Shown one piece after another: positions 307 through 63,562 of a stretch of DNA of 64,000 nt (positions are counted from its first letter, which is position 1; each line of letters opens with the position of its first letter). The position numbers were made by a program, and so were the translations under genes. The notes under the pieces are model-generated. The model saw only the letters and a list, made by a program, of their open reading frames with translations, was not told where the DNA came from and made no database searches. The DNA lies in assembly GCA_001770955.1 (NCBI GenBank), contig MESL01000047.1, positions 62,001-126,000 on the forward strand. Reading direction: 5' to 3'. This DNA is from Burkholderiales bacterium RIFCSPLOWO2_12_FULL_65_40 (lineage in GTDB: Bacteria > Pseudomonadota > Gammaproteobacteria > Burkholderiales > Burkholderiaceae_C).

Positions 307-1197
307 TCAGAGAATTTCGGTGAGCATGCGCGCCACGCCGGCTTGCCAGTGCGGGAGCTGGAGGCCAAAGGTGGATTGCAGCTTGGCCGTGTTCAGGCGC
401 GAGTTGTGTGGGCGCGTGGCGGGCGTGGGAAAGGCGCTGGTGGGCACGGGCGCCACCTCGGTCGCTTTGATTTTGATAGCTGGTTGCGCTTGTACAGCTT
501 GGCTCAGAACGTATTTCGCATACAAATTCCAATTGGTCTCGCCAGCGGCCACGCAGTGGAACAGGCCGCCATCTTCGGGGCGCTGCTGCAGGTGGCGGAC
601 GGCGTGGGCTGTCACGTCGGCCAGCAGATCCGCACCGGTGGGTGCGCCCCACTGGTCATCGATGACGGTAAGCCGATCGCGCTCCTGCGCAAGACGCAGC
701 ATGGTCTTGGCGAAGTTGCCCCCACGCGCCGCATAAACCCAGCTCGTGCGCAAGATCAGGTGCTGGCAGCCCGATTGCTGGATCAGCTGCTCGCCTTCCA
801 GCTTGGTGCGGCCATAGCAGCTCAGCGGCGCGGGGGCATCGGTTTCCACCCAGGGACGGCTGCCGCTGCCATCAAAAACGTAGTCGGTGCTGTAGTGCAC
901 CAGCCAGGCGCCCAGGCGGCCGGCCTCCTCGGCCAGCACGCCAGGTGTGGTGGCGTTGAGCAGGCGCGCAAACTCCGGTTCACTCTCGGCCTTGTCCACG
1001 GCGGTGTGGGCGGCGGCGTTGACGATGACATCAGGGCGGAGTTGGCGCACAGTGTCGCGGACGCCTTCGGGCTGGCTGAAATCGCCGCAGTGCTCCGGGC
1101 TATCGAAGTCCAGCGCCGTTACCTGGCCCAGCACGGCCAGGCTGCGCTGCAGTTCCCAACCGACCTGGCCACCCTTGCCCAGCAGCAGGATGTTCAT
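307..1197 (-). CDS. rfbD: dTDP-4-dehydrorhamnose reductase
   Basis: Last enzyme of dTDP-L-rhamnose synthesis; reduces dTDP-4-keto-L-rhamnose with NAD(P)H in the cytoplasm. 296 aa, the family length. It has an N-terminal Rossmann motif ([13 protein letters not shown]), the catalytic YSTDYVFDG region and the [13 protein letters not shown]-terminal signature. The ATG at 1197 was chosen because it overlaps the rfbB stop by 4 nt and begins directly before the GxxGxxG motif; the frame stays open upstream but inside rfbB. The variable linker before PTPATRP is encoded by a dispersed repeat copy (466-507). Confidence 0.95.
466..507 (+). repeat. Dispersed AATAGCTGC-type repeat, copy inside rfbD
   Basis: Core GATAGCTGGTTGCGCTTGT matches the shared pattern (A)ATAGCTGCT-(N)GCGCTT of the other copies. 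It lies antisense in rfbD and encodes the linker [13 protein letters not shown], a poorly conserved part of the enzyme. Degenerate copy. Confidence 0.5.
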
Positions 1198-2267
1198 GCG
1201 GCCACCCCGGTGGGGGCGTACTGGGCCTGCACCCAGTCGCGGTAGGCGCCGGTCTGCACGCCCGCCACCCATTCCGGGTTCTGCAGATACCACTGCACGG
1301 TCTTGCGAATGCCGGTGTCGAAGGTTTCTGCGGGCTTCCAGCCCAGTTCGCGCTCGATTTTGCGGGCGTCGATGGCATAGCGCCGGTCGTGGCCGGGGCG
1401 ATCTTTGACGTAGGTGATCTGGCTGCGGTAGCTCTGGCCGTCGGCGCGCGGGAGCAGTTCGTCGAGCAAAGCGCACACCGTATTCACGATATCGATGTTG
1501 GGCTTCTCGTTCCAGCCACCGACGTTGTAGGTCTCGCCCAGGCGGCCCGCTTCGAGCACGCGGCGGATGGCGCTGCAGTGGTCCTTGACGTACAACCAGT
1601 CGCGGATCTGCATACCGTCACCGTACACGGGCAGGCTCTTGCCGGCCAGCGCGTTGACGATCATCAGCGGGATGAGCTTTTCCGGGAAGTGGTAGGGACC
1701 GTAGTTGTTGCTGCAATTGGTGGTGAGCACCGGCAGCCCGTAGGTGTGGTGCCAGGCGCGCACCAGATGGTCGCTGGCGGCCTTGCTGGCACTGTAGGGG
1801 CTGTTGGGCTCGCAGTTGTGCGCTTCGGTAAATGCGGGCGCATCGGGCGCCAGCGTGCCGTACACCTCGTCGGTGCTTACGTGCAGGAACCGGAATGCTT
1901 CCTTTTCAATAGCTGGAAGCGCTTGCCAGTAGTGCCTTGCAGCCTCCAGAAGCCGAAAACTTCCGACCACGTTGGTCTGGATGAAATCCTCCGGCCCGTG
2001 AATGGAGCGGTCCACATGCGATTCGGCCGCAAAATTGACAATGGCGCGCGGCCGGTGTTCAGCCAGGAGGCGCTCCACCAGGGCACTGTCGCCGATGTCG
2101 CCCTGCACGAAAACATGGCGCGCATCGCCCTGCACGCTGGCCAGGTTCTGCAGATTGCCTGCATAGGTCAATTTGTCGAGGTTGACGACGCTCTCCTGGG
2201 AGCAGCCGAGCCAGTCGAGAACGAAATTGGCGCCAATGAAGCCGGCGCCGCCGGTGACGAGGATCAT
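1194..2267 (-). CDS. rfbB: dTDP-glucose 4,6-dehydratase
   Basis: Converts dTDP-glucose to dTDP-4-keto-6-deoxyglucose, the second step of the dTDP-rhamnose pathway. 357 aa, typical length. The translation starts [19 protein letters not shown] (NAD-binding Rossmann), carries HVSTDEVYG with the catalytic Thr-Asp-Glu, and the [15 protein letters not shown] YxxxK motif. First gene of the leftward rfb operon seen here, with a 4-nt overlap into rfbD. Residues around [12 protein letters not shown] are encoded by a dispersed repeat-like sequence without changing the length expected for the family. Confidence 0.96.
1896..1954 (+). repeat. Dispersed AATAGCTGC-type repeat, copy inside rfbB
   Basis: TTTTCAATAGCTGGAAGCGC followed by TTGCC and, about 25 nt on, AGCCTCCAGAAGCC fits the repeat layout (AATAGCTG, then GCGCTT, then AGGCC-like). 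It encodes [12 protein letters not shown] of RfbB on the opposite strand, at a position where homologues have the same length. Confidence 0.5.
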
Positions 2268-2347
2268 GGTAAGGACCGTCCGAAGGGCCTATGGGCAAAG
2301 CTTGGAATTATCCCACTGCCCCCCGGACCCGTCCGTAACCATTCGCA

Positions 2348-2364
2348 GGCCTGCCAGGCAGGCC
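2348..2364. other. Perfect 17-bp palindrome after the acyl-CoA reductase gene
   Basis: GGCCTGCCAGGCAGGCC is a perfect inverted repeat (8-bp arms around one base) starting 7 nt past the stop codon of the gene at 2371-4356. No T-run follows on the minus strand, so a canonical intrinsic terminator is not shown; a transcript-end hairpin is possible. The rest of 2268-2370 holds no gene. Confidence 0.4.
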
Positions 2365-2370
2365 AAGCGC

Positions 2371-4356
2371 TCAGAAATGAATGCCCCGCATCATCTGCTG
2401 CAGCGCAATCGCCTCGGCCGACAGCTGCGGCTTGCCGCTCTTGTCGCCCTTGGCCGCCGTCGAGTCCGGGAACATGCGGAAGCTGGTGTTCATGGCGATC
2501 TGTGCCACGCGCGGCACCAGCGCGTGCAACACCTGCCCCACGGTGCCCAGGCGCGTGGCGATGCGCACGGGCTTGAAGATGCAGGCCTGCGCAATCATGT
2601 CGGCGGCCTCTTCGGGGCTGAGCGTGGGCACGTTGTTGTAGATCTGGGTGGGCGCGATCATGGGCGTGCGCACCAGCGGCATGTTGATGGTGGTGAAGGT
2701 GATCCCCTGGTCGGCAAATTCGCTCGATGCGCAGCGCGTCCAGGCATCCAGTGCCGCCTTGCTGGCCACGTAGGCCGAGAAGCGCGGCGCATTGGTCAGC
2801 ACGCCGATAGAACTGATGTTGACCACATGGCCCTTGCGCTTTTCCACCATGCCGGGCAGAAAGCCCATGGTGACCCGCAGACAACCAAAGTAGTTGAGCT
2901 GCATGGTGCGCTCGAAATCGTGGAAACGGTCGTAGCTCGACTCGATGGCACGGCGGATGGAGCGGCCCGCGTTGTTGATGAGGAAGTCCACCCCGCCGTG
3001 GTCGGCGACAAGCTGCTGCACGAAGCGGTCGCAGTCCTGCATGTCGGCAATATCCGTCGCATACGCGATGAATTCGTAGCCTTTGTCCCGGGCCTCCTGG
3101 CAGGCGGCGTCAAGTTTGTCCTGGTCGCGCCCGCAGATGATGGTAGTGGCGCCCGCCTCGGCAAACTTGTGCGCTGCCGCCAGGCCGATGCCCGACGATC
3201 CGCCCGTCACCAGCACCACCTTGCCCGCCACCGTGCCCTTGAGCGTGCGGTCGATGAACAGCTCGGGGTCGAGGTGGCGCTCCCAGTAGTCCCACAGGCG
3301 CCATGCGTAGTCCTTGAGGTTGGGGCACTGCACGCCCGAGCCCTTGAGCGCCGCCAGCGTCTCGCGGCAATCGAAGCGCGTGGGATAGTTCACGAAGGTG
3401 AGCATGTCCTCGGGCAGCCCCAGGTCCTTGAGGACGGCGTTGCGCACGCGGCGCACCGGGGCAATCGCCATCAGGCTCTTCTTCACGCCCTTGGGAATGA
3501 AGCCCAGCAGCGCTGCGTTGACGAACAGGTTCATGCGCGGCGCATGCGCTGCGCGCGAGAAGATGTCGAGCACGTCACCCACGCGGTAACCCACCGGGTC
3601 CACCAGATGGAAGCATTTCTTGCCGATCGACGGCTGGTGGCTGATGACGTTGATGGCATTGACCACGAAATCGACCGGCACGATGTTCACGCGCCCGCCT
3701 TCCAGGCCCACGGCGGGCATCCACGGCGGCAGCAACTGGCGCATGCGCTGGATGAGCTTGAAAAAATAGTACGGGCCGTCGATCTTGTCCATCTCGCCGG
3801 TTTGGCTGTCGCCCACCACCATGGCCGGGCGGTACACCGTCCAGGGCATCTTGCAGTCCTGGCGCACAATCTTCTCGCTCTCGTGCTTGGTGAGAAAGTA
3901 CGGGTGGTCCAGGCCTTCAGCCTCCTCGAACATATCCTCGCGGAAGACCCCTTCGTACAGGCCCGCAGCAGCAATCGACGAGACATGGTGGAAATGGCCG
4001 GCATCGATGGCTTTGGCGAACTCGACCGTGTTGCGCGTGCCCTCGATGTTCACGGCCACCTGGCTCTCCGTGTCGGCCGACAGGTCATACACCGCGGCGA
4101 GATGGTGAAAATGGTCGATCTGGCCCTTGAGCTTTTTCACATCTTCGGTAGCCACCCCGAGCTTGCGGGCGGTCAGGTCACCGAACACCGGCACGGCACG
4201 CGCTGCGCTCACGCCCCAGTAGCTGCGCAGCTCGGCCACCTTGCCGGCACTTTCCTTGCGCAGCAAAAAATACACCACGCTGCCTTTGCGCTCCAGGAGC
4301 TTTTTGACCAGACGCTTGCCAATGAACCCTGTGGCTCCTGTCACGAAATACTGCAT
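2371..4356 (-). CDS. Fatty acyl-CoA reductase-like two-domain SDR protein
   Basis: 661 aa with two Rossmann domains. Residues about 1-370 form an extended-SDR/male-sterility-type reductase (TGATGFIGKRLVKKLL; catalytic YFLTK). Residues about 380-640 form a classical SDR (VTGGSSGIGLAAA; NNAGRSIRR; YVASK). Length, domain order and many stretches, such as HHVSSIAAAGL and DGPYYFFK, match from memory the Marinobacter fatty acyl-CoA reductase (Maqu_2220 type), which reduces acyl-CoA to fatty alcohol in two NADPH steps. The alcohol-forming activity here is inference. It diverges from the phasin gene, a second storage-lipid-related gene. It could also act on other acyl thioesters. Confidence 0.8.
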   Translation of the reverse strand: MQYFVTGATGFIGKRLVKKLLERKGSVVYFLLRKESAGKVAELRSYWGVSAARAVPVFGDLTARKLGVATEDVKKLKGQIDHFHHLAAVYDLSADTESQVAVNIEGTRNTVEFAKAIDAGHFHHVSSIAAAGLYEGVFREDMFEEAEGLDHPYFLTKHESEKIVRQDCKMPWTVYRPAMVVGDSQTGEMDKIDGPYYFFKLIQRMRQLLPPWMPAVGLEGGRVNIVPVDFVVNAINVISHQPSIGKKCFHLVDPVGYRVGDVLDIFSRAAHAPRMNLFVNAALLGFIPKGVKKSLMAIAPVRRVRNAVLKDLGLPEDMLTFVNYPTRFDCRETLAALKGSGVQCPNLKDYAWRLWDYWERHLDPELFIDRTLKGTVAGKVVLVTGGSSGIGLAAAHKFAEAGATTIICGRDQDKLDAACQEARDKGYEFIAYATDIADMQDCDRFVQQLVADHGGVDFLINNAGRSIRRAIESSYDRFHDFERTMQLNYFGCLRVTMGFLPGMVEKRKGHVVNISSIGVLTNAPRFSAYVASKAALDAWTRCASSEFADQGITFTTINMPLVRTPMIAPTQIYNNVPTLSPEEAADMIAQACIFKPVRIATRLGTVGQVLHALVPRVAQIAMNTSFRMFPDSTAAKGDKSGKPQLSAEAIALQQMMRGIHF

Positions 4357-4581
4357 GTTGAAAACTCCTGTTGATGGCTTCGTTCATTCTTGCCCAACCA
4401 CTGCCCCACGGGCTTCAGCAAAAACCCGCGTCGATGCTAACCACACCACGCCGTGCTAGATGGCCTGCTCTACGTTTTTAGGAGCGCGCGCCTACACGGC
4501 GCGGAGCGCAGCGCGTACAGTCCGTCCTATGCCAAAAGCAGATCGCCGCGGCACCGATTTCAACCCTTCATTGGAGGCCAC

Positions 4582-5250: not shown

Positions 5251-5290
5251 CCCTCTAGGCATGCGGCAGGTCCCTCGTGTTCCTGCCCGA

Positions 5291-5323
5291 TGCGGCTGTC
5301 ACACCCCCGGTGTGACAGCCGCA
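5291..5323 (+). terminator. Intrinsic-type terminator hairpin after the phasin gene
   Basis: Perfect 15-bp arms (5291-5305 and 5309-5323, TGCGGCTGTCACACC and its complement) around a CCC loop, 40 nt after the phasin stop. TTGCATTGCG follows rather than a pure T-run, so termination efficiency is uncertain, but the stem is very stable. Confidence 0.75.
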
Positions 5324-5433
5324 TTGCATTGCGCCCCCGAAAAATGCCGCAGCGCAGCATTCGGAGCATCCAATAACGTCGGTTAGAGTAGCCCCAAAGA
5401 ACCATTCCATTCGATGCATGAGGGCCAGTACAC

Positions 5434-6087: not shown

Positions 6088-6088
6088 A

Positions 6089-6236
6089 ACACCCCCCTGA
6101 GTCGCTTCGCGCCTTCCCCCCGCTCTCGCATCGCTGCGCGATGCGGGCAGGGGGACGCCCCCAGCGCACGCCAGAGAAACGCCGCCTGCGCGGCATGGCT
6201 GCCCTTGCGCGGGGGCCGCTGGCCTGGGCCACGCCT
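6089..6236 (+). repeat. GC-rich post-stop repeat, copy 1
   Basis: Begins ACACCCCCCTGAGTCGCTTC directly after the TetR stop and runs through the CCTTCCCCC / GGGGGACGCC stem pair, with an inner GCATCG/CGATGC hairpin, to GCCCTTGCGCGG and CTGGCCTGGGCC. The same layout recurs seven more times in this window. The rest of the gap to 6351 holds no gene. Confidence 0.85.
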
Positions 6237-6351
6237 GTTTCCCGCATTGCGGGCAATGCGACGTCCCAGGACGAACTGCAGCAGCGGTTCTCTTTTCCTT
6301 CCGGCCCCGCCCCCGCCGTTTAAAAATACCAACCGATAACGGAGACACACC

Positions 6352-9381: not shown

Positions 9382-10303
9382 AATCCCACAATGGTGCGGG
9401 CTCTTCGTGCAGATGGCGGCGCAGGGCCGCGTAGTCGGGGACGACGGTGCGCACGGTGTCCCAGAAACGTGGGCTGTGGTCCATCACGCGCAGGTGCGCC
9501 AGTTCGTGCGCCACCACATAGTCGATCACCGAAGGCGGGTAGTGCAGCAGACGCCAGTTCAGACAGATCGAGCCATCGGCACGCGCGCTGCCCCAGCGCG
9601 TCTGGGCGCTGGACAGGCGCAGGCGGGTCCAGCGCACCCCCAGCAGCGGTGCAAAGTGCTCCAGCCGCTCGGTGAAATGCTGGCGCGCGCCACGCATCAG
9701 CCAGGCCTGCACTGCGTCGCGGATCTGCTCGGGCCGGGCCACGCCCGGCAGGCCGATGTGCAGTTGCCGTGCGGCTTCCGCACCCTCCCCGGCCGTCCGC
9801 AAGGCACCCGCCACGCGCTCGCCTGGGTCGAGCACCACGCGCAGCGGCGCGCCCAGGTAGGGCAGCACAGCGCCGTCCTGCCAGCGGATGCGTGCATGCT
9901 CCAGGCGCTGCTGGCGCTCGCGCGCCTCGTCCAGCTTGCGCAGAATCCAGGCCGATTTTTCGCGCAGCGCGGCATCCACGGCCGCCAGCGTGACCCAGGT
10001 GGGTGCCCGCACCGACAGGCCATCGGCCCCCACAGTGAAGCCGATGCTGCGTCGGCGCGCACGCTGCAGCGCATAGGCCACCACCGCATGGCCGAGCACC
10101 ACCTCGCGGCTGGCCTGAGGGTGGCGAAAGCTCGCGGGGGCCAGCAGGGTCTGCAGCGGCGCAGCGCTGCCAGCAGCATTTGCTCTAATTTCAGTAGCTG
10201 CCAACGCTTTACCATCAAGCGCGGAAGGCACTTTTGGCTCAAGCTTTTCAGGGGCTGGCGGATCGAAGAGATCCAGTGCCATCTGCACAAGCTGCTGCAT
10301 CAT
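9380..10303 (-). CDS. YgjP-like M48-family metallopeptidase (DUF45)
   Basis: 307 aa cytoplasmic protein. The C-terminal half carries the zinc motif VVAHELAHLRVMDHSPRFW (HExxH plus a downstream His), preceded by QTRWGSARADGSICLNWRLL, a signature of the YgjP/DUF45 family. The N-terminal 50 residues are not conserved-looking and include a stretch encoded by a dispersed repeat (10179-10240). Two adjacent ATGs (10303 and 10300) are possible starts. Last gene of the leftward glyQ-glyS-hypothetical-gmhB-like-ygjP operon, 12 nt after its neighbour. Substrate unknown. Confidence 0.85.
   Translation of the reverse strand: MMQQLVQMALDLFDPPAPEKLEPKVPSALDGKALAATEIRANAAGSAAPLQTLLAPASFRHPQASREVVLGHAVVAYALQRARRRSIGFTVGADGLSVRAPTWVTLAAVDAALREKSAWILRKLDEARERQQRLEHARIRWQDGAVLPYLGAPLRVVLDPGERVAGALRTAGEGAEAARQLHIGLPGVARPEQIRDAVQAWLMRGARQHFTERLEHFAPLLGVRWTRLRLSSAQTRWGSARADGSICLNWRLLHYPPSVIDYVVAHELAHLRVMDHSPRFWDTVRTVVPDYAALRRHLHEEPAPLWD
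10179..10240 (+). repeat. Dispersed AATAGCTGC-type repeat, copy inside the YgjP-like gene
   Basis: TTTGCTCTAATTTCAGTAGC, then TGCCAACGCTTTACCATC and AAGCGCGGAAGGCACTTTTG. This is one of the clearest intragenic copies: it has both hairpin halves and the trailing AGGC-TTTTGG. It encodes the variable segment SALDGKALAATEIRANA on the opposite strand. Confidence 0.75.
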
Positions 10304-14883: not shown

Positions 14884-15011
14884 ATCCGGCACGCCCCGAG
14901 CCAGTGGCCCCCGCGCAAGGGCCGCCCCGCCGCGCTGGGGGCGTCTCCCTGCCCGCATCGCGTAGCGATGCGAGAGCGGGGGGAAGGAGCGCAGCGACAC
15001 AGGGGGGTGTT
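14884..15011 (-). repeat. GC-rich post-stop repeat, copy 3
   Basis: Read on the minus strand, AAACACCCCCCTGTGTCGCT follows the fabB stop codon at once. CTTCCCCCCGCTCTCGCATC and the GATGCGGGCAGGGAGACGCC stem partner come next, then GCCCTTGCGCGGG. It fills most of the 317-nt gap between fabB and glyQ. The remaining 14695-14883 holds no gene. Confidence 0.85.
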
Positions 15012-24177: not shown

Positions 24178-24305
24178 AACACCCCCCTGTGTCGCCTGCG
24201 GCGCCTTCCCCCTGCTCTCGAATGGCTACGCCATTTCGGGAAGGGGGACGCTCCCAGCGCGGCGGGGCGGCCCTTGCGCGGGAGCCTTGGCTTGGGCCGC
24301 GCCTG
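24178..24305 (+). repeat. GC-rich post-stop repeat, copy 4
   Basis: AAACACCCCCCTGTGTCGCC begins 2 nt after the hppD stop. CTTCCCCCTGCTCTCGAATG and the mate CGGGAAGGGGGACGCTCC form the stem, with an AATGGC/GCCATT inner hairpin. GCCCTTGCGCGGGAGCC and TTGGCTTGGGCCGCGCCTGT end the element. Confidence 0.85.
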
Positions 24306-24359
24306 TGTCATGCGCCGCGAATAGCACGTGCACCATACAAAACCAGAAAGGAGACTCCC

Positions 24360-25199: not shown

Positions 25200-25210
25200 T
25201 TTTTTTAAGT

Positions 25211-25273: not shown

Positions 25274-25286
25274 AGCTTTTTTGAGT

Positions 25287-25991
25287 GCGGGAGCCGGGGT
25301 GTGCTCCCGGCGGCGCAGTAACTTTCTCTTGTCTCGCCAAGAGAAAGTCACCAAAGAGAAGGCGACCCTACTGTGCGTGTCCCTTCGCTGCGCTACGGGC
25401 AACCTGCGATGCTCGGGCAGGGGGTGCGCCGCGTAACTCACTGCGCGCTTGCAGCGCTCCGTTCAAACAACTGCGGCGAGTCAGTGCACGAAGTGCGTGT
25501 GTCCTACGGCACACGCACGCACCCCCTGCCCTGCGCTTCTCGGCACGCACAGAAGGGAACCCGCAACCGGACATCCACACGGGCCATCGCTTCGCTCGGC
25601 CCCGTCTGCGCGGGCGCAAGCGCCTCGCGCTGCGCTATCCAGGCCGAACGCAGCGATGGCCCGTATGGCTGTTGGGCTGTTGGGCTGTTGGGCTGTTGGG
25701 CTGTTGGGCTGCCACCCCCCTTCTGTATGCGCCTGGGGCGCGCAGGAGGCGGGGTGGCGTGGGTGAGCCGCAGGACACACCCGCGCTTCGTCAACTGACT
25801 CGCCGCGTCTGTCTGAACGGAGCGCCGCAGGCGCGCAGTGAGTTACGCGGCGCACCCCGCATCCGAGCACCCCAGGTTGCCCCGTAGCGCAGCGAAGGGG
25901 TCGCAGACAGTAGGGTCGCCTTCTTTTGCCTTCTTTTCTTGGCGAGACAAGAAAAGAAGGTGCGCCGCCGGGCGCACACCCCGGCTCCCGC
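25287..25991. repeat. Large imperfect inverted-repeat block (no gene)
   Basis: The left arm 25287-25557 and right arm 25716-25991 are imperfect inverted copies of each other. Both outer ends read GCGGGAGCCGGGGTGTG inward. Both share TTGTCTCGCCAAGA, AAGGCGACCCTACTGT, CCTTCGCTGCGCTACGGG and GCGCCGCGTAACTCACTGCG. The centre holds a second inverted repeat (ACGGGCCATCGCTTCGCTCG versus its mate near 25635-25665) and an 8-bp tandem array. Open frames here are repeat artefacts with Arg/Pro/Ala-rich translations. It could be an attenuating or insulating structure or a mobile repeat. It is the main content of the 871-nt gene-free gap 25200-26070. Confidence 0.85.
25667..25711. repeat. 8-bp tandem repeat (TTGGGCTG)n
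   Basis: Five perfect TTGGGCTG units (25672-25711), preceded by a partial unit GGCTG (25667-25671). Such short arrays expand and contract by slippage; no coding frame depends on it. It sits in the loop of the large inverted repeat. Confidence 0.9.
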
Positions 25992-26013
25992 CCGTCGGAA
26001 AGGCACGCAGATA

Positions 26014-33262: not shown

Positions 33263-33372
33263 CCCATCCCCCCGAGCGGCTGACGCCGCTCCCCCCTTCT
33301 CTGCGCGCCGCAGTGCCGCGCGGGAAGGGGGGCGACACCAGCGCGGCGGGGCGGCCCTTGCGCGGTGTCTGC
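33263..33372 (+). repeat. GC-rich post-stop repeat, copy 5 (variant)
   Basis: CATCCCCCCGAGCGGCTGAC starts 3 nt after the stop. CTCCCCCCTTCTCTGCGC and GCGCGGGAAGGGGGGCGAC form the stem, followed by ACCAGCGCGGCGGGGCGGCC and CTTGCGCGGTG, identical to the other copies' tails. The head is more divergent. The remaining sequence up to 33516 holds no gene. Confidence 0.75.
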
Positions 33373-47210: not shown

Positions 47211-47262
47211 CGCAGTGACCCTACCGCGTGGCACGCCACCCACAGCGCTGGACACCGGCGCG

Positions 47263-47378
47263 GCTCAGCCAGTGGCCACCGCGCAAGGGCCGCCCCGCAG
47301 CGCTGGTGGCGTCCCTCTTCCCGCATCGCGCAGCGAGGCGAGAGAAGGGGGAAGGCGCGTAGCGCCTCAGGGGGATGC
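47263..47378 (-). repeat. GC-rich post-stop repeat, copy 6
   Basis: Read on the minus strand: GGCATCCCCCTGAGGCGCTA, CGCGCCTTCCCCCTTCTCTC, then GAAGAGGGACGCCACC and GCGGGGCGGCCCTTGCGCGG. It starts 1 nt past the methyltransferase stop codon at 47380, in the same orientation as in the other copies. Confidence 0.85.
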
Positions 47379-47379
47379 C

Positions 47380-48513
47380 TCATAACCTGTGCGTGCGGTC
47401 GCCATTCGCAAAGCCCACCGGCTCCCACGGCTCGCCCTTGCACAGTGCCAGCACCTTGAACAGCTCGCCCATTTCGTGTTCCATGATCAATTTGGCCGCT
47501 ATCGCCCGCTGGGAAAGCGCCTGATGCTCCATTTTTGGGAGCAAACCACAGTTGATGAGAAAGTGTGCCTGCGTGGTGTAGCCCAGCACGTTCCAGCCCT
47601 GGCCCTCGGGCAGGGGCTGGTCCTGCGCGGCCAGCGCCATGGCGGTGAAGTTGACGTGGGCGGTAATGTCCTTGAGGCCCACATCCTGCAGCGGATCGTC
47701 GTCGGAGCGGTGCGCGCGGTGGCACATCACCGTGCCCATGTGGCGCTGCGGGTGGTAGTACTCACTCTCGCCAAAACCATAGTCCAGTAGAAGCACTGCG
47801 CCGCGCACCAGCCGGTCGCCCAGGGTGTGGATGAAGGCCTCGGCCTGCGGGTGGATCTCGGTCAGGTAGTCCTGCGGGCCCTCGATTTCGACGGGCGGGC
47901 GCAGGTCGGTAGGCCGGTCTTCCCAGGCAAAGCTGCCGTTCTGCACCACCACGCCGCGCTCGTGCCACACGCCGCCCTGCGCGCCGCCGTGGCGCGCGAG
48001 CAGCTTCACGGGCATGGCGTCGAGCACCTCGTTGCCCACCACCACGCCCTCCATGCGCTCGGGCAGCGCATCGACCCAGCGCACTTTGCCTTCGTGCGCC
48101 GTCAGCAGCGCCTGCTGGCGCGCGCGCAGGCTGCCCGAAAGATCGACGATGGTGTAGCGCTGCACGGCGTCGCCCAGCGCATCGAGCAGCTGCAGCGCCA
48201 GCGCGCCCGAGCCGGCGCCGAACTCCCAGACCTCGCAGGTAGCGGTGCGCTGCAGTGCCTCGGCCACCTGCACGGCCAGCGTCTGGCCGAACAGCAGCGT
48301 CATCTCGGGGGCGGTCACAAAGTCGCTGCCCGAGTCGGGCAGCGTGCCAAACTTGGGCAGATCGCCCGCGTAGTAGCCCAGGCCGGGGGTGTAGAGCGCC
48401 AGCTCCATGAAACGGTCGAAACCGATCCAGCCGCCATGGGCTGCAATGGCCTGCGCGATGTGGGTCTGCAGGGCGGTCGTTAAACTTGTGGGTTCTGTCG
48501 TCACGGCCTGCAT
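47380..48513 (-). CDS. SAM-dependent methyltransferase, MidA/NDUFAF7 family
   Basis: 377 aa. It starts at the ATG at 48513 and then shows FMELALYTPGLGYYAGDLPK, the family N-terminus. The SAM motif I is VWEFGAGSGALALQLLDALG, followed by GNEVLDAMPVKLLARHGG and LLLDYGFGESEYYHPQR. In mitochondria the homologue methylates an Arg of complex I; the bacterial role is not established. It diverges from the SDR gene with 9 nt between start codons. The C-terminal region includes a degenerate dispersed repeat. Confidence 0.9.
   Translation of the reverse strand: MQAVTTEPTSLTTALQTHIAQAIAAHGGWIGFDRFMELALYTPGLGYYAGDLPKFGTLPDSGSDFVTAPEMTLLFGQTLAVQVAEALQRTATCEVWEFGAGSGALALQLLDALGDAVQRYTIVDLSGSLRARQQALLTAHEGKVRWVDALPERMEGVVVGNEVLDAMPVKLLARHGGAQGGVWHERGVVVQNGSFAWEDRPTDLRPPVEIEGPQDYLTEIHPQAEAFIHTLGDRLVRGAVLLLDYGFGESEYYHPQRHMGTVMCHRAHRSDDDPLQDVGLKDITAHVNFTAMALAAQDQPLPEGQGWNVLGYTTQAHFLINCGLLPKMEHQALSQRAIAAKLIMEHEMGELFKVLALCKGEPWEPVGFANGDRTHRL
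47498..47538 (+). repeat. Degenerate AATAGCTGC-type repeat inside the methyltransferase gene
   Basis: CGCTATCGCCCGCTGGGAAA, then GCGCCTGATGCTCCATTTTT, keeps GCTAT, AAGCGCCTGA and a trailing CCATTTTTGG, but the central AATAGCTGCT is poorly kept. Weak member of the family. Confidence 0.35.
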
Positions 48514-48522: not shown

Positions 48523-49308
48523 ATGTCCACCGCTCCCCGTCCGCGTACCGTCCTGGTCACCGGCGCCGCCCGGCGCCTGGGCCGCAGCATTGCGCTGGAG
48601 CTGGCCGCTGGCGGCTGGCAGGTGGCCGTGCACTACCGGCAGTCCGAGCAGGATGCTATCGATACCGTAGCTGCTTGCGCAGAACTGTCGGGCGCCAGCG
48701 CCCATTTTGATGCGGATTTTCAGAACGAGGCCTGCGTGCGCGCCCTGCTGCCGCGCGTGGTGGCGCACTTTGGCAGCGTGGATGCCGTGGTCAACAGCGC
48801 GTCGCTGTTCGAGCACGACGACGCCGCCAGTTTCGGCTTTGCCACGCTGGAGCAGCACCTGCGCAGCAACACCGGCGCGCCCATCGTGCTGGCCCAGGCC
48901 CTGCACGCGCATCTGCTGGAGCGTGCCGCCAAGGGCGAGATGGATGCGCAGGGCGCCGTGGTCAATCTGCTGGACCAGAAGCTCTGGAACCAGAACCCCG
49001 ATTTTCTGAGCTACACCCTGTCCAAGGCCGCCCTGGAGGCTGCCGGCACCATGCTGGCCCTGGCCCTGGCGCCGCGCGTGCGCGTGGTGGGCGTGGCGCC
49101 GGGACTCACGCTCACCAGCCACCTGCTGAGCGAGGAGCAGTTCCGTCAGCGGCACACGCTCAGCCCGCTGGGGCGCTCGTCCACGGCCGAAGATGTCGCC
49201 AGCGCGGTCCGTTTCGCGCTGGAAAACCGCTCCCTCACCGGCACCACGCTGCTGGTCGATGGGGGCCAGCATCTGATGAAGTTCGACCGCGACTTCTCCC
49301 TGATGTAA
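48523..49308 (+). CDS. SDR oxidoreductase, FolM-like pteridine reductase
   Basis: 261 aa short-chain dehydrogenase. NADP motif LVTGAARRLGRSIALEL (TGxxxRxG, as in pteridine reductases), NSASLFEHDD, catalytic FLSYTLSKAALEA and a C-terminal LVDGGQHL. It sits 15 nt upstream of folB. By analogy with FolM it may reduce dihydromonapterin or dihydrofolate, and so could supply the tetrahydropterin cofactor of PhhA (24360). A dispersed repeat copy encodes QDAIDTVAACAELSGASAHF near the N-terminus. Confidence 0.85.
   Translation: MSTAPRPRTVLVTGAARRLGRSIALELAAGGWQVAVHYRQSEQDAIDTVAACAELSGASAHFDADFQNEACVRALLPRVVAHFGSVDAVVNSASLFEHDDAASFGFATLEQHLRSNTGAPIVLAQALHAHLLERAAKGEMDAQGAVVNLLDQKLWNQNPDFLSYTLSKAALEAAGTMLALALAPRVRVVGVAPGLTLTSHLLSEEQFRQRHTLSPLGRSSTAEDVASAVRFALENRSLTGTTLLVDGGQHLMKFDRDFSLM
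48653..48711 (+). repeat. Dispersed AATAGCTGC-type repeat, copy inside the FolM-like gene
   Basis: ATGCTATCGATACCGTAGCT, GCTTGCGCAGAACTGTCGGG and CGCCAGCGCCCATTTTG match the family (TGCTAT hairpin, TAGCTGCTTGCGC, trailing GCGCCNATTTTG). The reading frame is kept through it. Confidence 0.7.
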
Positions 49309-49712: not shown

Positions 49713-50651
49713 ATGACCCCCTGGACCGACGAACCCGAAACCGCCGCCCCCGCCACGCCGCAGGGCCGCCCCGACTTCAAGATCGAGCGCGAGGCGCACA
49801 AGCTCGAAAAACGCCTGTGCCGCGAGGTCGGCAAGGCCATCGTGCAGTACAACATGATCGAAGAGGGCGACAAGGTCATGGTCTGCATGTCGGGCGGCAA
49901 GGACAGCTACGCCCTGCTCGACATCCTGCTCAAGCTGCAAAAGCGCGCGCCCATCCACTTCGACCTGGTGGCCGTGAACCTCGACCAGAAGCAGCCGGGC
50001 TTTCCCGAGCATGTGCTGCCCGACTACCTGCGCGCGCAGGGCATCCCGTTCCATATCGAGAACGAGGACACCTACAGCATCGTCAAGCGCCTCATCCCCG
50101 AGGGCAAGACCACCTGCAGCCTGTGCTCGCGCCTGCGCCGGGGCATCCTCTACCGCGTGGCGGACGAGCTGGGCGCCACCAAGATCGCCCTGGGCCACCA
50201 CCGCGACGACATCCTGCAGACGCTGCTGCTCAACATGTTCTTCGGCGGCAAGCTCAAGAGCATGCCGCCTAAGCTCGTGAGCGACGACGGCCGCCATGTG
50301 GTCATCCGCCCGCTGGCCTTCGTGTCCGAAAAGGACACGACGCGCTGGGCGGCGCAGCGCAACTTCCCCATCATCCCGTGCAACCTCTGCGGCAGCCAGG
50401 AGAACCTGCAGCGCAAGCAGGTGGGCGAGATGCTGCGCGAGTGGGAAAAGAAGTACCCCGGCCGCGTGGAGAACATGTTCAACGCCCTGCAGAACGTGGT
50501 GCCCAGCCATCTGCTCGACGGCCAGCTTTACGACTTCAAGGGCGCCCAGGCCACAGGCATCGCCAGCGAAGACGGCGACAAGGCCTTCGACCAGGAAGAA
50601 TTCCCTGCGCCGCCCCAGCTTCCGGGCATGCAGGTCGTGCATATTGGGTGA
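49713..50651 (+). CDS. ttcA: tRNA 2-thiocytidine(32) synthetase
   Basis: 312 aa PP-loop ATPase with [20 protein letters not shown] (ATP motif). A Fe-S cluster Cys pair lies in [15 protein letters not shown], with a third Cys in [18 protein letters not shown]. It adds sulfur to C32 of certain tRNAs. The ATG at 49713 was chosen; a GTG 24 nt upstream overlaps the folB end. It is followed without a gap by a GC-rich repeat. Confidence 0.95.
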
Positions 50652-50780
50652 CACCCCCCTGTGTCGCTGCGCTCCTTCCCCCCGCTCTCGCCTCGCTGCG
50701 CGATGCGGGCAGGGGGACGCCACCAGCGCTGCGGCGCGGCCCTTGCGCGGCGGCCGCCGGCCTGGGCCGCGCCAGTACCA
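50651..50780 (+). repeat. GC-rich post-stop repeat, copy 7
   Basis: The last base of the ttcA stop is followed by CACCCCCCTGTGTCGCTGCG. CCTTCCCCCCGCTCTCGCCT pairs with GATGCGGGCAGGGGGACGCC. ACCAGCGCTGCGGCGCGGCC, CTTGCGCGG and GGCCTGGGCCGCGCC end the copy. Confidence 0.88.
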
Positions 50781-58387: not shown

Positions 58388-58456
58388 CAATGCTCCGTGA
58401 AAGCGGAATGCTCTTTGTCGTTGCCCCCATTGTCAAAAGCCCTTGCCATGAAGCAC

Positions 58457-58470: not shown

Positions 58471-58540
58471 GGACATGCGGAACCATTGCGGTGAATATCC
58501 GCATATGTCGGTCGCCCATCGTGCACTGCCGTTCCTTACC

Positions 58541-58933: not shown

Positions 58934-60111
58934 AACGCCGCGACTGCCTAGCCCTGATGGGCGCCTCCTCTCTGTTGCTGGCCGGTTGCGCCGGAATCCC
59001 GGCCGCCACCGGCACGGGCGATCTCGGCGTCGTCGTGGCGCGTTCCACAGGCACGCTGGCCATTGTCAACACCACCCAGCGCACGCTGCTGGCCGAGGTC
59101 AAGGGCCTGGGCGACCTCTCGCACGCCTCGGTGGTGTTCTCGCGCGATGGCCGCTACGCCTTTGTCTTCGGACGCGACGGCGCACTCACCAAGGTCGATC
59201 TGCTGACGCGCCGCATCGCCGCCCGCGTGATGCAGGCCGGCAACTCGATTGGCGGCGCCATCAGCGCCGACGGCCGCCTGGTGGTGGCGCAGAACTACAC
59301 GCCCGGCGGCATCAAGGCCTTCGACACCGCCACGCTGGAGCTGGTGGCCGACATTCCGGCCGAATACGCGCCCGGCAAGCTCTCGCGCGTGGTCGGGCTG
59401 GTCGATCTGCCCGGGCACCGCTTCGCCTACAGCCTGTTCGATGCCGACGCCATCTGGATCTCCGATCTGTCCGACCGGGCCAACCCCGTCACCACCAAGC
59501 TGCCCAACATCGGCCGCCAGCCCTACGACGCGCTGGTCACGCCCAACGGCCGCCACTACATCGCGGGCCTGTTCGGCGAGGACGGGCTGGCCATGGTCGA
59601 CCTGTGGGAAGAAACCCCGCGCGTGCGCCGCATCCTGGGCGGCTACGGTCGGGGCCAGGAGCCGCTGCCGGTCTACAAGATGCCGCACCTGCGCGGCTGG
59701 GCCGTGGCAGGGCGCCGCGCCTACCTGCCCGCCATCGGCCGCCACGAGGTGCTGGTGGTGGACACCGACACCTGGCAGGAGGTGGGCCGCATCCCGGTGG
59801 CGGGCCAGCCCGTGTTCGTGATGGCGCGTCCCGACGGCCGCCAGGTGTGGGTGAACTTCTCGGTGCCCGACTACCACCGCGTGCAGGTCATCGACACCAC
59901 CACGCAGAAGATCGTTCGCACACTGGAGCCCGGCAAGGCCGTGCTGCACATGGAGTTCACGCCGCGCGGCGAATCGGTCTGGATCAGCTCGCGCGACGAC
60001 CACCGCGTCAGCGTGATCGACACGCAGACCTTCGCCACCCAGGCGACCATGACGGTCGATTCGCCCAGCGGCATTTTCTTCACCTCCCGCGCTGCGCGGG
60101 TGGGGTTCTAG
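58930..60111 (+). CDS. nirF: Heme d1 biosynthesis protein NirF
   Basis: 393 aa beta-propeller. The N-terminus is a lipoprotein-type signal (MGASSLLLAGCAG). Blades with GRYAFVFGRDGALTKVDLLT, RLVVAQNYTPGGIKAFDTAT and LPNIGRQPYDALVTPNGRHY match NirF and resemble the d1 domain of NirS. NirF is needed late in heme d1 synthesis and acts in the periplasm. 4-nt overlap with nirC; nirDL starts right after its stop. Confidence 0.92.
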   Translation: MKRRDCLALMGASSLLLAGCAGIPAATGTGDLGVVVARSTGTLAIVNTTQRTLLAEVKGLGDLSHASVVFSRDGRYAFVFGRDGALTKVDLLTRRIAARVMQAGNSIGGAISADGRLVVAQNYTPGGIKAFDTATLELVADIPAEYAPGKLSRVVGLVDLPGHRFAYSLFDADAIWISDLSDRANPVTTKLPNIGRQPYDALVTPNGRHYIAGLFGEDGLAMVDLWEETPRVRRILGGYGRGQEPLPVYKMPHLRGWAVAGRRAYLPAIGRHEVLVVDTDTWQEVGRIPVAGQPVFVMARPDGRQVWVNFSVPDYHRVQVIDTTTQKIVRTLEPGKAVLHMEFTPRGESVWISSRDDHRVSVIDTQTFATQATMTVDSPSGIFFTSRAARVGF

Positions 60112-61143
60112 ATGGCCCCCGACGCCGACCTGCACCTGGCGCTGCTCAACCCTTGGCAGCGCGGCTTTCCGCTGGTGCGCGAGCCCTTTGGGCACATTGC
60201 AGGCACGCTGGGCCTGTCGGTCGATGAAGTTCTGGCGGGCTACGCCCGGCTGCAGCGCGAAGGCGCACTGAGCCGCATCGGCGGCGTGTTCGCGGGCAAC
60301 GCCGGCGGTGCGGCGCTGCTGGCCGCCATGGCGGTGCCCCCCGAGCGGCTGGACGCCGTGGCCGCCGTGGTGTCCAGCCACCCGGGCGTGAACCACAACT
60401 ATCAGCGCGAGCACCACTTCAACCTCTGGTTCGTGATGACCGGGCAGGACGATGCCGCCGTGCGCGCGGCCATGCGCTCGCTCGAAGACGCCACAGGCCT
60501 CCCCGCGTTGCAACTGCGCATGCAGCGCGCCTACCGCATCGACCTGGGCTTTGATCTGCGCGAACGCACCGCTCCTGCACCCATGGCCGCCGCGCGCGAG
60601 GCCACACCGGTGCTGGATGCCGACCGGCCGCTCGCTGCCCTGCTCGAAGACGGCCTGCCCCTGGTGCCCCGCCCCTACGACGCCTGGGCGCAAGCGCTGG
60701 ACCGCACGGGCGAATCGGTGCTGCAAACGCTGCAGCAGTGGCTGGACCAGGGCACGGTGCGTCGCATCGGCGCCATCGTGCGCCACCACGAGCTGGGCTT
60801 TGATGCCAACGCCATGACGGTGTTCAACATTCCCGACGCGCAGGTGGATGCCTGCGGTGAAGCCCTCGCCCGTGTGACCGGCGTGACGCTGGCCTACCGG
60901 CGCGAGCGCGCCGGGGGCTGGCCCTACAACCTGTACTGCATGGTGCATGGCCGCGACCGCGCCGCCGTACTGGACGTGATCGCGCGCGCCATCGCCGACG
61001 CGGGCCTGGCGCAGTACCCGCACGAGGTGCTGTTTTCATGCCGCCGCTTCAAGCAGACCGGCCCTCGGCGCTTCCGCGCCCTGCCCGAAGCCGCAGCCCC
61101 CAGCGCCGCCACACTGGAGGTGCTTGATGCTGTCGCCGGATGA
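60112..61143 (+). CDS. nirDL: Siroheme decarboxylase, fused NirD-NirL
   Basis: 343 aa made of two AsnC-like halves. Residues about 8-160 are NirD-like (LLNPWQRGFPLVREPFGHIA; VNHNYQREHHFNLWFVMTG). Residues about 180-335 are NirL-like (LLEDGLPLVPRPYDAW; VRRIGAIVRHHELGFDANAM; GGWPYNLYCMVHGRD). With NirG and NirH it decarboxylates 12,18 acetates of siroheme to didecarboxysiroheme. No DNA-binding role is expected despite the AsnC fold. It overlaps nirG by 17 nt. Confidence 0.92.
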   Translation: MAPDADLHLALLNPWQRGFPLVREPFGHIAGTLGLSVDEVLAGYARLQREGALSRIGGVFAGNAGGAALLAAMAVPPERLDAVAAVVSSHPGVNHNYQREHHFNLWFVMTGQDDAAVRAAMRSLEDATGLPALQLRMQRAYRIDLGFDLRERTAPAPMAAAREATPVLDADRPLAALLEDGLPLVPRPYDAWAQALDRTGESVLQTLQQWLDQGTVRRIGAIVRHHELGFDANAMTVFNIPDAQVDACGEALARVTGVTLAYRRERAGGWPYNLYCMVHGRDRAAVLDVIARAIADAGLAQYPHEVLFSCRRFKQTGPRRFRALPEAAAPSAATLEVLDAVAG

Positions 61144-61597
61144 TGCCCGCCTGCTGGAACGCCTGCACGGTGATCTGCCGCTGACCGAGCGGCCCTTCGC
61201 AGACGTGGCCGCCGAGTTCGGCTGGACAGAGGAATACGTCATCGGGCGGCTCTCGGCCCTGCTGGAGAGCGGCATGCTCACGCGCTTCGGCCCGCTGTTC
61301 CAGATCGAGCGCGCGGGCGGTCTGTTCGTGCTGGCCGCCATGTCCGTGCCCGAGGAGCGCTACGAGGCCGTCACGGCGCAGGTCAACGCCCACCCCGAGA
61401 TCGCGCACAACTACCGGCGCGCGCATGCGCTCAACATGTGGTTCGTGCTCGGCACCGAAACCCCGGCGCAGTGCGCGGCCGCGATCGAACGCATCGAGGC
61501 CGAGACGGGTTTGCCCGTACTGGCCTTTCCGAAGGAGCGCGAGTTCTTCGTCGAACTCAAGCTCCCCCTGACGAGCGGAGAAGCCCATGGCGCTTGA
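61127..61597 (+). CDS. nirG: Siroheme decarboxylase subunit NirG
   Basis: 156 aa AsnC-like protein with LERLHGDLPLTERPFADVAA, ESGMLTRFGPLFQIERAGG and the catalytic-type IAHNYRRAHALNMWFVLGTE, like the NirD half of NirDL. Start at the ATG at 61127 (a TTG precedes it). Overlaps nirDL and, by 11 nt, nirH, so all four decarboxylase parts are translationally coupled. Confidence 0.9.
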   Translation: MLSPDDARLLERLHGDLPLTERPFADVAAEFGWTEEYVIGRLSALLESGMLTRFGPLFQIERAGGLFVLAAMSVPEERYEAVTAQVNAHPEIAHNYRRAHALNMWFVLGTETPAQCAAAIERIEAETGLPVLAFPKEREFFVELKLPLTSGEAHGA

Positions 61598-62069
61598 CGA
61601 TTTCGACCGCCAGCTGATCGCCGCCACCCAGGGCGGCCTGCCGCTGGTGCCGCGCCCCTACGACGCCGTGGGCGAACGCCTGGGCGTCTCAGGCCTGCAG
61701 GTGCGCGAGCGCCTGGCGCAATTGCTGGAAACCGGCCTGGTCCGCCGCATCGGCGCCGTGCCCAACCACTACCGCCTGGGCTTCACGGCCAACGGCATGA
61801 GCGTCTGGGACGTGGACGACACCCAGGTGGACATCCTCGGCGAGCGCATCGGCCAGCTGCCCGGCGTGAGCCACTGCTACCGCCGCCCACGCCGCCTGCC
61901 CGACTGGCCCTACAACCTGTTCGCCATGCTGCACGGCCGCTCACGCGCCGAGGTCGAGCAGCAGGCCGTGCAGTTGCAAGAGTTGCTGGGCACCGCCTGC
62001 CGGGGCCACGACATCCTGTATTCCACCGCCATCCTCAAAAAGACCGGTCTGCGTCTCAAGGAAAGCTAA
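61587..62069 (+). CDS. nirH: Siroheme decarboxylase subunit NirH
   Basis: 160 aa AsnC-like protein similar to the NirL half of NirDL: LIAATQGGLPLVPRPYDAVG, LVRRIGAVPNHYRLGFTANG and LPDWPYNLFAMLHGRSRAEV. It forms the heterodimeric decarboxylase with NirG in known systems. nirJ begins 3 nt after its stop. Confidence 0.9.
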   Translation: MALDDFDRQLIAATQGGLPLVPRPYDAVGERLGVSGLQVRERLAQLLETGLVRRIGAVPNHYRLGFTANGMSVWDVDDTQVDILGERIGQLPGVSHCYRRPRRLPDWPYNLFAMLHGRSRAEVEQQAVQLQELLGTACRGHDILYSTAILKKTGLRLKES

Positions 62070-62072
62070 ACC

Positions 62073-63326
62073 ATGTTCCGTATCAGCCAATACATGCGCG
62101 AGCTCGCGCAAGCCCAGGCGACTGGCACCTACCCCGTTCCCGCCCGCCGGGGCAGCGGTCAGCCGCCCGGCCCGGTGGTGATCTGGAACCTGATCCGCCG
62201 CTGCAATCTCACCTGCAAGCACTGCTATGCGCTGTCGGCCGACCACGACTACGAGGGCGAGCTGTCCACGCAGGAAGTGTTCGGCGTGATGGACGACCTC
62301 AAAGCCTATAAGGTGCCGGTGCTGATTCTCTCGGGCGGCGAGCCGCTGATGCGGCCCGACATCTTCGAGATTGCCGAGCGCGCCAAGGCGATGAAGTTCT
62401 ATACCGGCCTGTCCACCAACGGCACGCTGATCGACGAACCCATGGCCGACCGCATCGAGGCCATGGGCTTCGACTACGTTGGCATCAGCCTCGACGGTCT
62501 GCGCGAAACGCACGACCATTTCCGCCGCCTCGATGGCGCCTTCGACCGCAGCCTGGCCGCCGTGCGCTACCTGCACCAACGCGGCGTGAAGGTGGGCCTG
62601 CGTTTCACCATGACCGCGATGAACGCGCACGACTTCCCGGCGCTGCTGAACCTGATGCGCGAAGAGGCCGTGGACAAGTTCTACTTCTCGCACCTCAACT
62701 ACGCCGGGCGCGGCAACATCCACCGTGGCAAGGACGCGCAGTTCCAGGCCACGCGCGACGCCCTCGACCTGCTGTTCGAGCGCGCCTGGCAGTCCGCGCT
62801 GGAAGGCCGCGAGGAAGACTACGTGACCGGCAACAACGACGCCGACGGCCCCTATCTGCTGCAGTGGGTGCGCGAGCGCATGCCGCAGTGGGAGGCACCG
62901 CTGCGCGAGCGCCTCCTGGCCTGGGGTGGCAATTCAAGCGGCGTGAACGTGGCCAACATCGACAACCTGGGCACCGTGCACCCCGACACCATGTGGTGGC
63001 ACCACGACCTGGGCAACGTGCGCCAGCGCCCGTTTTCAAGCATCTGGTCCGACACCTCCGAGCCGCTGATGGCGGGCCTCAAGGCCAAGCCGCGCCCGGT
63101 GGGCGGGCGCTGCGCGCAATGCCACTACTTCAGCATCTGTGGCGGCAACACCCGCGTGCGCGCTCAGCAGCTCACGGGCGACGCCTGGGCCGAAGACCCC
63201 GGCTGCTACCTGCGTGACGACGAGATCGGTCTGGAAACAGGCAGCGATGCGCAGCGCGTGGCGGTGACGCCGTTCAGCCACCGCCGCCGCACCATCGAGA
63301 TCCACCCGGAGTCGGAAAATGCCTGA
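62073..63326 (+). CDS. nirJ: Radical SAM heme d1 synthase NirJ
   Basis: 417 aa. Radical SAM 4Fe-4S motif CNLTCKHCYALSADHDY near residue 46, ILSGGEPLMRPDIFEIAERA, and a C-terminal SPASM-like Cys set (GGRCAQCHYFSICGGNTRVR; DPGCYLRDD). It replaces two propionates of didecarboxysiroheme with oxo groups in heme d1 synthesis. Last complete gene of the nir operon. Confidence 0.94.
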   Translation: MFRISQYMRELAQAQATGTYPVPARRGSGQPPGPVVIWNLIRRCNLTCKHCYALSADHDYEGELSTQEVFGVMDDLKAYKVPVLILSGGEPLMRPDIFEIAERAKAMKFYTGLSTNGTLIDEPMADRIEAMGFDYVGISLDGLRETHDHFRRLDGAFDRSLAAVRYLHQRGVKVGLRFTMTAMNAHDFPALLNLMREEAVDKFYFSHLNYAGRGNIHRGKDAQFQATRDALDLLFERAWQSALEGREEDYVTGNNDADGPYLLQWVRERMPQWEAPLRERLLAWGGNSSGVNVANIDNLGTVHPDTMWWHHDLGNVRQRPFSSIWSDTSEPLMAGLKAKPRPVGGRCAQCHYFSICGGNTRVRAQQLTGDAWAEDPGCYLRDDEIGLETGSDAQRVAVTPFSHRRRTIEIHPESENA

Positions 63327-63504
63327 GCTCCTGCGACGCTGGATAGCGACCGTTGGCAAGCTGGCCCTGAGCGCCGGCCTGCTCTGGATGGGCGTAGACC
63401 TGGCCCATGCACAGCCCACCCCCGCGTCGGTGGCAGCAGCGCCCGCATGGGTCGCTTCCATCGACACAATGGCGGCGGATGGCGGCTGCTCACACGGGCT
63501 TTGA
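63319..63504 (+). CDS. Short exported peptide after nirJ, possibly a truncated gene
   Basis: 61 aa. An Arg-rich N-terminus and hydrophobic helix (LALSAGLLWMGVDLAHAQP) make a convincing signal peptide, but only about 28 residues follow (PTPASVAAAPAWVASIDTMA...). It overlaps nirJ by 8 nt, as a true downstream gene would. NirN, an exported cytochrome expected in heme d1 clusters, often follows here, so this may be a nirN remnant. Its stop codon is the TGA at the edge of a dispersed repeat (63503-63562). Function cannot be assigned. Confidence 0.4.
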   Translation: MPELLRRWIATVGKLALSAGLLWMGVDLAHAQPTPASVAAAPAWVASIDTMAADGGCSHGL

Positions 63505-63562
63505 TGCTATTTTTTTAATAGCTATTGACGCTTGACGAACAATCGTTACGGGTCATTTTTAA
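63503..63562 (+). repeat. Dispersed AATAGCTGC-type repeat, intergenic copy before lolD
   Basis: GATGCTATTTTTTTAATAGC, TATTGACGCTTGACGAACAA and TCGTTACGGGTCATTTTTAA follow the family order. It begins at the end of the short exported ORF and ends at the lolD stop codon. Confidence 0.75.

Follow-up and report, generated by a model that had tools for sequence, protein, structure and literature searches.

A dispersed 70-bp motif with three dyads in Comamonadaceae genomes: a candidate duplex DNA signal

Rickettsia palindromic elements (RPE) are palindromic DNA carried in frame by protein-coding genes, to which they add a peptide insert, and repetitive extragenic palindromic (REP) sequences and REPINs, with their RAYT transposases, combine hairpin-like dyads with many vertically kept copies. 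The uptake signal sequences (USS) of Pasteurellaceae and the DNA uptake sequences (DUS) of Neisseriaceae occur in many copies on both strands, are rich between genes, stable in position and mostly neutral in length at orthologous sites, and have a conserved core of 9-12 bp with A/T-rich flanks. USS are described as evolving by point mutation, not as inserted elements (PMC7811141), and DUS as occupying permissive places of the core genome, mostly intergenic, highly conserved and in many cases arisen by recombination (PMC2397512). BRE, a Betaproteobacteria repeat of Bordetella and Polaromonas, is described as averaging 69% G+C in Bordetella, with some tandem copies (PMC3110155). Here we describe a dispersed repeat, the motif, found in a 64-kb window (the whole stretch of DNA that was analysed: 64,000 nucleotides, positions 62,001 to 126,000 of contig MESL01000047.1) of the 3.77-Mb draft genome of Burkholderiales bacterium RIFCSPLOWO2_12_FULL_65_40, labelled G000 below.

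Like USS and DUS, the motif occurs in many copies on both strands, is rich between genes, keeps its positions and, within the genus, is mostly neutral in length at orthologous sites; it has a conserved core with A/T-rich flanks, and in the search made here it was restricted to one family. It differs from them in its length of ~70 bp, in dyads whose loops lie in either orientation and in its copies in integron cassettes, and a role in uptake would be a prediction. It resembles REP and REPIN in its dyads and its many vertically kept copies, but it does not track the Y1 transposase, and copies lie in coding frames. The GTAG/GGAG hairpin pair, which we take to define REPINs, is absent from the consensus, as is what we take to be the attC core, GTTRRRY with a bulged hairpin; in integron cassettes a separate attC-like stretch was seen by eye beside the motif. 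Like RPE, the motif is palindromic DNA in frame in coding genes; unlike the RPE insert, it leaves length unchanged at folM and, within the genus, at cca. BRE is the nearest named repeat: as passages of PMC3110155 describe it, it too occurs in Betaproteobacteria including Comamonadaceae, between genes and sometimes in coding sequences, at a similar length, and the motif (44% G+C, dispersed) differs from it in G+C and arrangement. The initial annotation of the window had known no named family for the repeat. Rfam gave 0 matches in the window at the gathering threshold, and the hits listed in open-access literature searches, most of them unread, included no description of the motif.

Copies in the window and anatomy of the motif

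The initial annotation had listed 15 dispersed places sharing one order of motifs. We scanned the window with a held-out gapless matrix of 72 columns, trained on 90 copies from outside the window (picked, however, with an earlier matrix that had seen it), and recovered exactly those 15 sites, at 30-73 bits, with the next best place at 0. The reversed window sequence had no place above 0 bits, and the best score in 20 order-2 Markov simulated windows was -8.1. The sites are the following:

458..529, plus strand: copy in rfbD (RmlD; Pfam RmlD_sub_bind), antisense to the gene, phase 2; 47 bits
1891..1962, plus strand: copy in an rfbB-like dehydratase gene, antisense, phase 2; 32 bits
9312..9383, minus strand: copy abutting the 3' end of a ygjP-like gene on its downstream side; 59 bits; orthologues in G022, G003 and G014
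10176..10247, plus strand: copy in the ygjP-like gene, antisense, phase 2; 60 bits
18010..18081, plus strand: copy in lnt, antisense, phase 2; 46 bits
25200..25271, minus strand: intergenic copy; 73 bits
26008..26079, plus strand: intergenic copy; 62 bits
29620..29691, plus strand: boundary copy over the start of a metallo-beta-lactamase-fold gene (Pfam Lactamase_B); 44 bits
30628..30699, plus strand: boundary copy; 32 bits
41735..41806, plus strand: first cca copy, sense, phase 0, spanning TINAIA and the linker after it; 42 bits
42581..42652, plus strand: second cca copy, in the C-terminal part, sense, phase 0; 30 bits
47477..47548, minus strand: weak copy in a gene named methyltransferase-like in the initial annotation, other frame; 38 bits; least certain
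48649..48720, plus strand: copy in a folM-like short-chain dehydrogenase/reductase gene, sense, phase 0; 55 bits
53612..53683, plus strand: copy in a yhhN-like gene, sense, phase 0; 62 bits
63500..63571, plus strand: intergenic or boundary copy; 73 bits

In-gene copies had all been called frame-preserving. Eight of them use one frame per strand (sense phase 0 in 4/4, antisense phase 2 in 4/4). The weak site first placed at 47498 (47477..47548) we regard as the least certain of the 15, because its minus strand and its reading frame are unlike those of the other in-gene copies. On either strand the frame used is the one least often interrupted: a stop occurs in 201 and 230 of 397 copies, against 245-382 in the other four frames. 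The further statement that copies mostly hit variable linkers is partly right; conserved sequence, the TINAIA motif, also lies under the first cca copy.

The strongly conserved core of the motif is ATAGCT-nn-T-n-GCGCTT; it is surrounded by A/T tracts and weaker dyad arms. Counted from the A of ATAGC, the consensus of 29 exact-core copies extends gapless from about -16 to +51, and 63 copies, each cut to the same length beforehand, align gap-free over 72 columns. Conservation is highest at positions 0 to 15 and declines outwards, the information spanning ~70 bp and being strongest over ~16 bp. A sharp A+T footprint covers about -17 to +54, with no composition signal outside it; G+C is 44% in the element and 67% in the window, in agreement with the initial remark that the repeat is AT-richer than the genome. 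That remark went with a description of two hairpins. The inverted repeats are there, but the dyads number three: GCTAT-7-ATAGC, CTnGCGCTT-7-AAGCGCnAG and a weaker GGCC-5-GGCT, centred at about -4, 19 and 39.

Loops and stems were analysed in 397 thinned copies of >=40 bits, drawn from all the DNA collected up to that stage. The strongest dependence between columns was between neighbours, many of them in loops, with tracts of either A or T. A model allowing loop inversion gained 255, 231 and 295 bits over the plain matrix for the three loops, compared with <=2.5 for shuffled columns and <=0.8 for four control segments; much of this dependence is explained by loops lying in either orientation. 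A free two-component mixture gained 305, 273 and 427 bits (96-137 in control segments), and its two components for loop 2 (GATGGAT / ATCCATC) were exact reverse complements, those for loops 1 and 3 nearly so. How one loop lay was independent of the other two (rho about 0), and flips at orthologous sites were rare, a single clear one being seen among the 27 pairs listed, in loop 1. The presence of both orientations could mean physical flipping in hairpins, or the indifference of a symmetric reader.

Compensatory stem changes, a check suggested with the hairpin description, did not appear clearly: in the 63 copies they were not above shuffles, and for 25 pairs in the 397 copies the largest Watson-Crick z was 2.4; with G-U included, z reached 3.1 at one third-dyad pair. 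RNAalifold returned 2 pairs only. Helical phasing gave peaks near 7.5, 10.5 and 24-25 bp, none of them singly clean. At motif positions 23-24 we observed AA in 287/397 copies, GG in 55 and AG or GA in 17, as if the two had changed in one step.

Beyond the window, an iterated matrix found 105 copies of >=20 bits in 467 kb of the window genome and 0 in the reversed sequence; since the greater part of the 467 kb had been selected around exact cores, the copy density there is biased. The view of a repeat spread over the genome and tolerated by coding sequence is supported. Two other matches reached 13 and 16 bits and all remaining ones <=7, and degraded copies are few, with 2/107 hits of >=12 bits scoring <25. 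The exact core occurs 48 times in the window genome (reversed pattern 0), and a covariance model gave at least 150 candidates in it, the 150 scored all being at E <=1.3e-8. The 15 copies per 64 kb extrapolate to ~880 per genome, and contiguous blocks of five relatives have one copy per 6.7 to 9.4 kb. Copies are over-represented on both strands and are rich between genes (54 intergenic, 25 boundary and 26 in-gene of the 105), this split being based on a rough gene caller (87% coding) that has the wrong strand at some places and whose phases were not used; reading frames were taken from Pfam-supported genes. Replichore polarity of the motif strand was considered and rejected, the strands being mixed in the full lists of two single-contig genomes. 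Spacing is mildly regular, with a coefficient of variation of 0.56-0.89 in six blocks (no significance attached). Three loci (L012, L017 and L025) have inverted pairs of copies at 44-bp spacing, forming longer palindromes.

Position, length and constraint at orthologous sites

Eight genomes of the genus (G000, G003, G004, G007, G012, G014, G022 and G023) were compared over their syntenic blocks. The motif was at the same site and strand in 267 of 342 orthologue comparisons, which are ordered, count both directions and are not independent. Among the 75 without the motif, 26 were equal in length, many of these concerning weak copies near the 20-bit threshold, and none was 64-74 bp shorter. The mobile element first suggested is not supported in this sample: no clean insertion or excision was seen in any of the 75, no insertion polymorphism with target duplication, as for a miniature inverted-repeat transposable element (MITE) or transposon remnant, was seen in the eight genomes, and the cca site is common to several genera. 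Ectopic gene conversion between copies, raised in the same suggestion, may occur. At the 9312 site the window genome differs by 72 bp in length from G003 and G022; this is not the motif, which both have.

Orthologues of cca and folM that lack the motif (G002 and G005, at cca also G007) have the same length, a similar protein and G+C-richer codons. Their aligned sites score -11 to -107 bits, against a background median of -86 and maximum of -7 in a G002 stretch; the motif-free sites at the first cca copy rank within the highest few per cent of background, which is what a shared protein sequence would produce. Across the family, the first cca copy lies at the same place in 19/20 motif-bearing genomes and in 12/13 other genera (G228 lacks it), and in 0/6 motif-free genomes, both groups having been picked by exact-core counts (11 to 306, and 0).

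The codons under this copy are unusual ones. Codon 98 of cca is ATA (Ile) in 30/30 genomes with the motif there and in 1/9 without it, ATA being 3% of Ile codons; of the other codons, ACT is found in 29/30 against 0/9 and GCT in 26/30 against 0/9. These counts are conditional, since the groups were chosen by motif presence, with G228 (motif elsewhere, not at cca) in neither and G007 (none at cca, motif elsewhere) counted as motif-free. Mean third-position identity is not raised, at 0.702 in the cca element and 0.697 in the rest of the gene; the signal at cca is in the kind of codon and not in the average.

Substitution was compared at sites where both genomes keep the motif. Flanks were compared ungapped, so that indels inflate their divergence, most clearly in G012-G007. 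Divergence in high-information columns, loops and flanks was as follows:

G003-G022: 26/400 (0.07), 0.20, 272/1520 (0.18)
G022-G023: 0.02, 0.06, 0.11
G003-G023: 0.06, 0.21, 0.15
G000-G003: 0.14, 0.44, 0.25
G000-G022: 0.13, 0.36, 0.22
G000-G014: 0.15, 0.46, 0.32
G003-G014: 0.16, 0.40, 0.25
G012-G007: 0.15, 0.34, 0.47

The core is slower than the flanks in 8/8 pairs, whereas loop divergence exceeds that of the flanks in 6/8.

Distribution among genomes and mobile DNA

The exact core was found in 22/40 relatives, namely the window genome and 21/23 others of its genus, and in 0/16 genomes from other families of the order. In a sample of the family, 53/250 genomes and 36/141 genera had it, with up to 306 copies, while the reversed pattern occurred twice in all 250. 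Copy number differs sharply within one genus, from 0 exact cores in G002 and G008 to 129 in G001. An extended core pattern is present in at least 118 stretches, and the named genomes with it include Acidovorax, Simplicispira, Ottowia, Paenacidovorax, Extensimonas, Comamonas and Giesbergeria. In G022, 29 kb without a copy take in a polysaccharide cluster of lower G+C.

A scan of viral contigs gave at least 120 stretches; in 120 of these (1.11 Mb) the matrix found 71 copies of >=20 bits, so that at least 49 of the 120 are without a copy. The 50,697 phage records gave 3 weak partial BLAST matches to one 72-base query copy, a search insensitive to diverged copies. Partial matches at E up to 1 were found in 1822/72,556 plasmid records, mostly enterobacterial, and a Diaphorobacter plasmid has one copy of 90 bits. 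In plasmid pUMNK88 a 58-bit copy (L356:3987-4058) lies in a cassette of a class 1 integron, with aadA on one side and a YciI gene on the other, and is annotated antisense as DUF1010; Pfam DUF1010 (PF06231) matches the antisense frame at 3.8e-33. DUF1010 is annotated under the match in 26/30 of the plasmid records listed.

The first ~25 of the 66 positions of DUF1010 correspond to the antisense translation of the motif. In the window genome, 10 of the 13 DUF1010 matches listed overlap independently found motif copies, all on the opposite strand. The domain covers more of the integron cassette than the motif does, whereas dispersed copies mostly match its first 20-45 positions, often with stops, and most fit only its first part. 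Full-length matches cluster in G159, G001, G175, G005 and G000, in arrays of integron-like cassettes, with in G159 a tandem array with a 320-bp period and 5.8 copies. Six loci around such clusters (L359, L360, L358, L361, L362 and L363) have 13, 8, 3, 2, 6 and 8 motif copies, and in two of the cluster loci attC-like stretches were seen by eye beside the motif. We conclude that the start of Pfam DUF1010, as annotated on plasmids, is a translated DNA motif, and that the pUMNK88 cassette carries a motif of Comamonadaceae type, whichever way it was transferred.

Possible readers of the motif and other explanations

Because the motif stays at its sites, preserves rare codons, lies on either strand and varies greatly in number between genomes, and its stems are not clearly maintained, we propose that it may be a long (~70 bp), orientation-free signal in double-stranded DNA, read by a trans-acting protein of these bacteria. 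Selection or drive would keep it at fixed positions, between genes where possible and in genes where the protein sequence allows. The likeliest reader would belong to natural transformation or homologous recombination, with the motif acting like the uptake signals of Pasteurellaceae and Neisseriaceae; we favour this role tentatively, at rather less than an even chance. Acidovorax temperans, A. facilis and Verminephrobacter are described as naturally transformable, and uptake in Verminephrobacter as looking selective, in passages of PMC4212676 that name no signal. If the motif were an uptake or recombination signal, Comamonadaceae would join Pasteurellaceae and Neisseriaceae as another, independent lineage whose DNA exchange is sequence-addressed, and the unexplained selectivity of transformation in Verminephrobacter and Acidovorax would become directly testable. 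Whatever its role, a 70-bp motif under which cca has kept rare synonymous codons in 13 genera points to a new DNA-reading system. In its broadest form the proposal is possible, though on the doubtful side: a new type of genome-wide DNA addressing system in Comamonadaceae, with a 70-bp duplex site of three dyads, hundreds per genome, older than the genera sharing it, having a predicted protein reader, written over coding sequence largely by substitution and leaving each loop free to lie either way.

Several observations weigh against a transformation or recombination signal. Copy number is graded, many of the 250 family genomes having 1-4 exact cores; the motif-free gap in G022 also has secretion-system genes; the motif is present in mobile DNA (integron cassettes, plasmids and some contigs filed as viral), and it is several times longer than known uptake sequences. 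The same source reports no transformation of A. temperans with DNA from A. facilis, A. defluvii or A. delafieldii (PMC4212676). Since A. temperans, A. defluvii and A. delafieldii all bear the motif, the motif alone would not explain that specificity. The competence protein ComEC (PF03772) is found in 39/40 genomes, with or without the motif, and was set aside as an uninformative discriminator. At cca, G228 has no motif despite its 69 exact cores, five alleles with the motif (G160, G054, G184, G267 and G167) have extra codons, and the linker of motif-free alleles is 12 bases shorter in 4/6 and longer in 2; extra codons and differing linkers together indicate that the past of the family included changes of length here.

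The extra codons at cca, the copies in integron cassettes and the loops lying both ways in all three dyads, with gains far above those of shuffled columns, would also suit an old hairpin element of REP or MITE type that a transposase or ectopic gene conversion once dispersed and that is now domesticated or maintained by conversion, a modified form of the initial view. The one orthologous loop flip (G012-G007, with 1/7 direct and 5/7 inverted matches) and a weak excess of pairing within the third dyad (z 3.1 for one pair, G-U included) agree with it. We nevertheless consider this origin somewhat unlikely, given the 75 comparisons free of clean insertion polymorphism, the lack of clear compensatory stem changes, the small number of degraded copies (2/107) and the Y1 transposases (RAYT-like), which are present in motif-free genomes and gave no match in the draft genome G003, where the exact core occurs 84 times. 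A mobile insert that is neutral and decaying would also be dispersed, on both strands and rich between genes, but it is largely contradicted by conservation: rare codons are kept at one site across 13 genera, conserved columns are slower than flanks and remnants are few, making it very improbable.

Free and mutually independent loop orientation is also what symmetric dimers would give, each reading one of three dyads ~20-23 bp apart on the duplex. Under this explanation the motif would be an architectural DNA site, bound by a nucleoid, replication or repair protein and having no uptake role; the dyad centres at about -4, 19 and 39 and the A or T tracts of either kind are consistent with it. 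The half-sites, however, are unequally conserved, there is no single clean 10.5-bp peak, and large differences in copy number within a genus fit a dispensable trait such as transformation more easily, so that we judge an architectural site rather unlikely. The three inverted repeats might alternatively fold in transcripts as a structured RNA element, but the motif lies both sense and antisense in genes (4 and 4 of 8), RNAalifold supports 2 pairs only and compensatory changes are not clear, and such an element is extremely improbable.

A RAYT/Y1 transposase was considered as the trans factor and rejected, since copy number does not track the Y1 gene in 35 genomes. The window genome has a single Y1-transposase (RAYT-like) gene, at G000:C7:127442-127771, and at least one Y1 match was found in 31/35 genomes, with or without the motif.

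Two other features were observed in the window. By eye, two G+C-rich stretches in inverted orientation (25275-25460 and 25880-26010), with an arm rich in TTTCT and AGAAA, were seen beside the copies at 25200 and 26008, and similar stretches flanking motif copies in G003, G022 and G023. A second dispersed repeat, G+C-rich and ~125 bp long, is found at 50650-50780, 47254-47377, 14888-15010, 6089-6238, 24179-24306 and 33265-33365, its copies being 76-89% alike; it gave 21 BLAST hits in 467 kb of the window genome and many in relatives.

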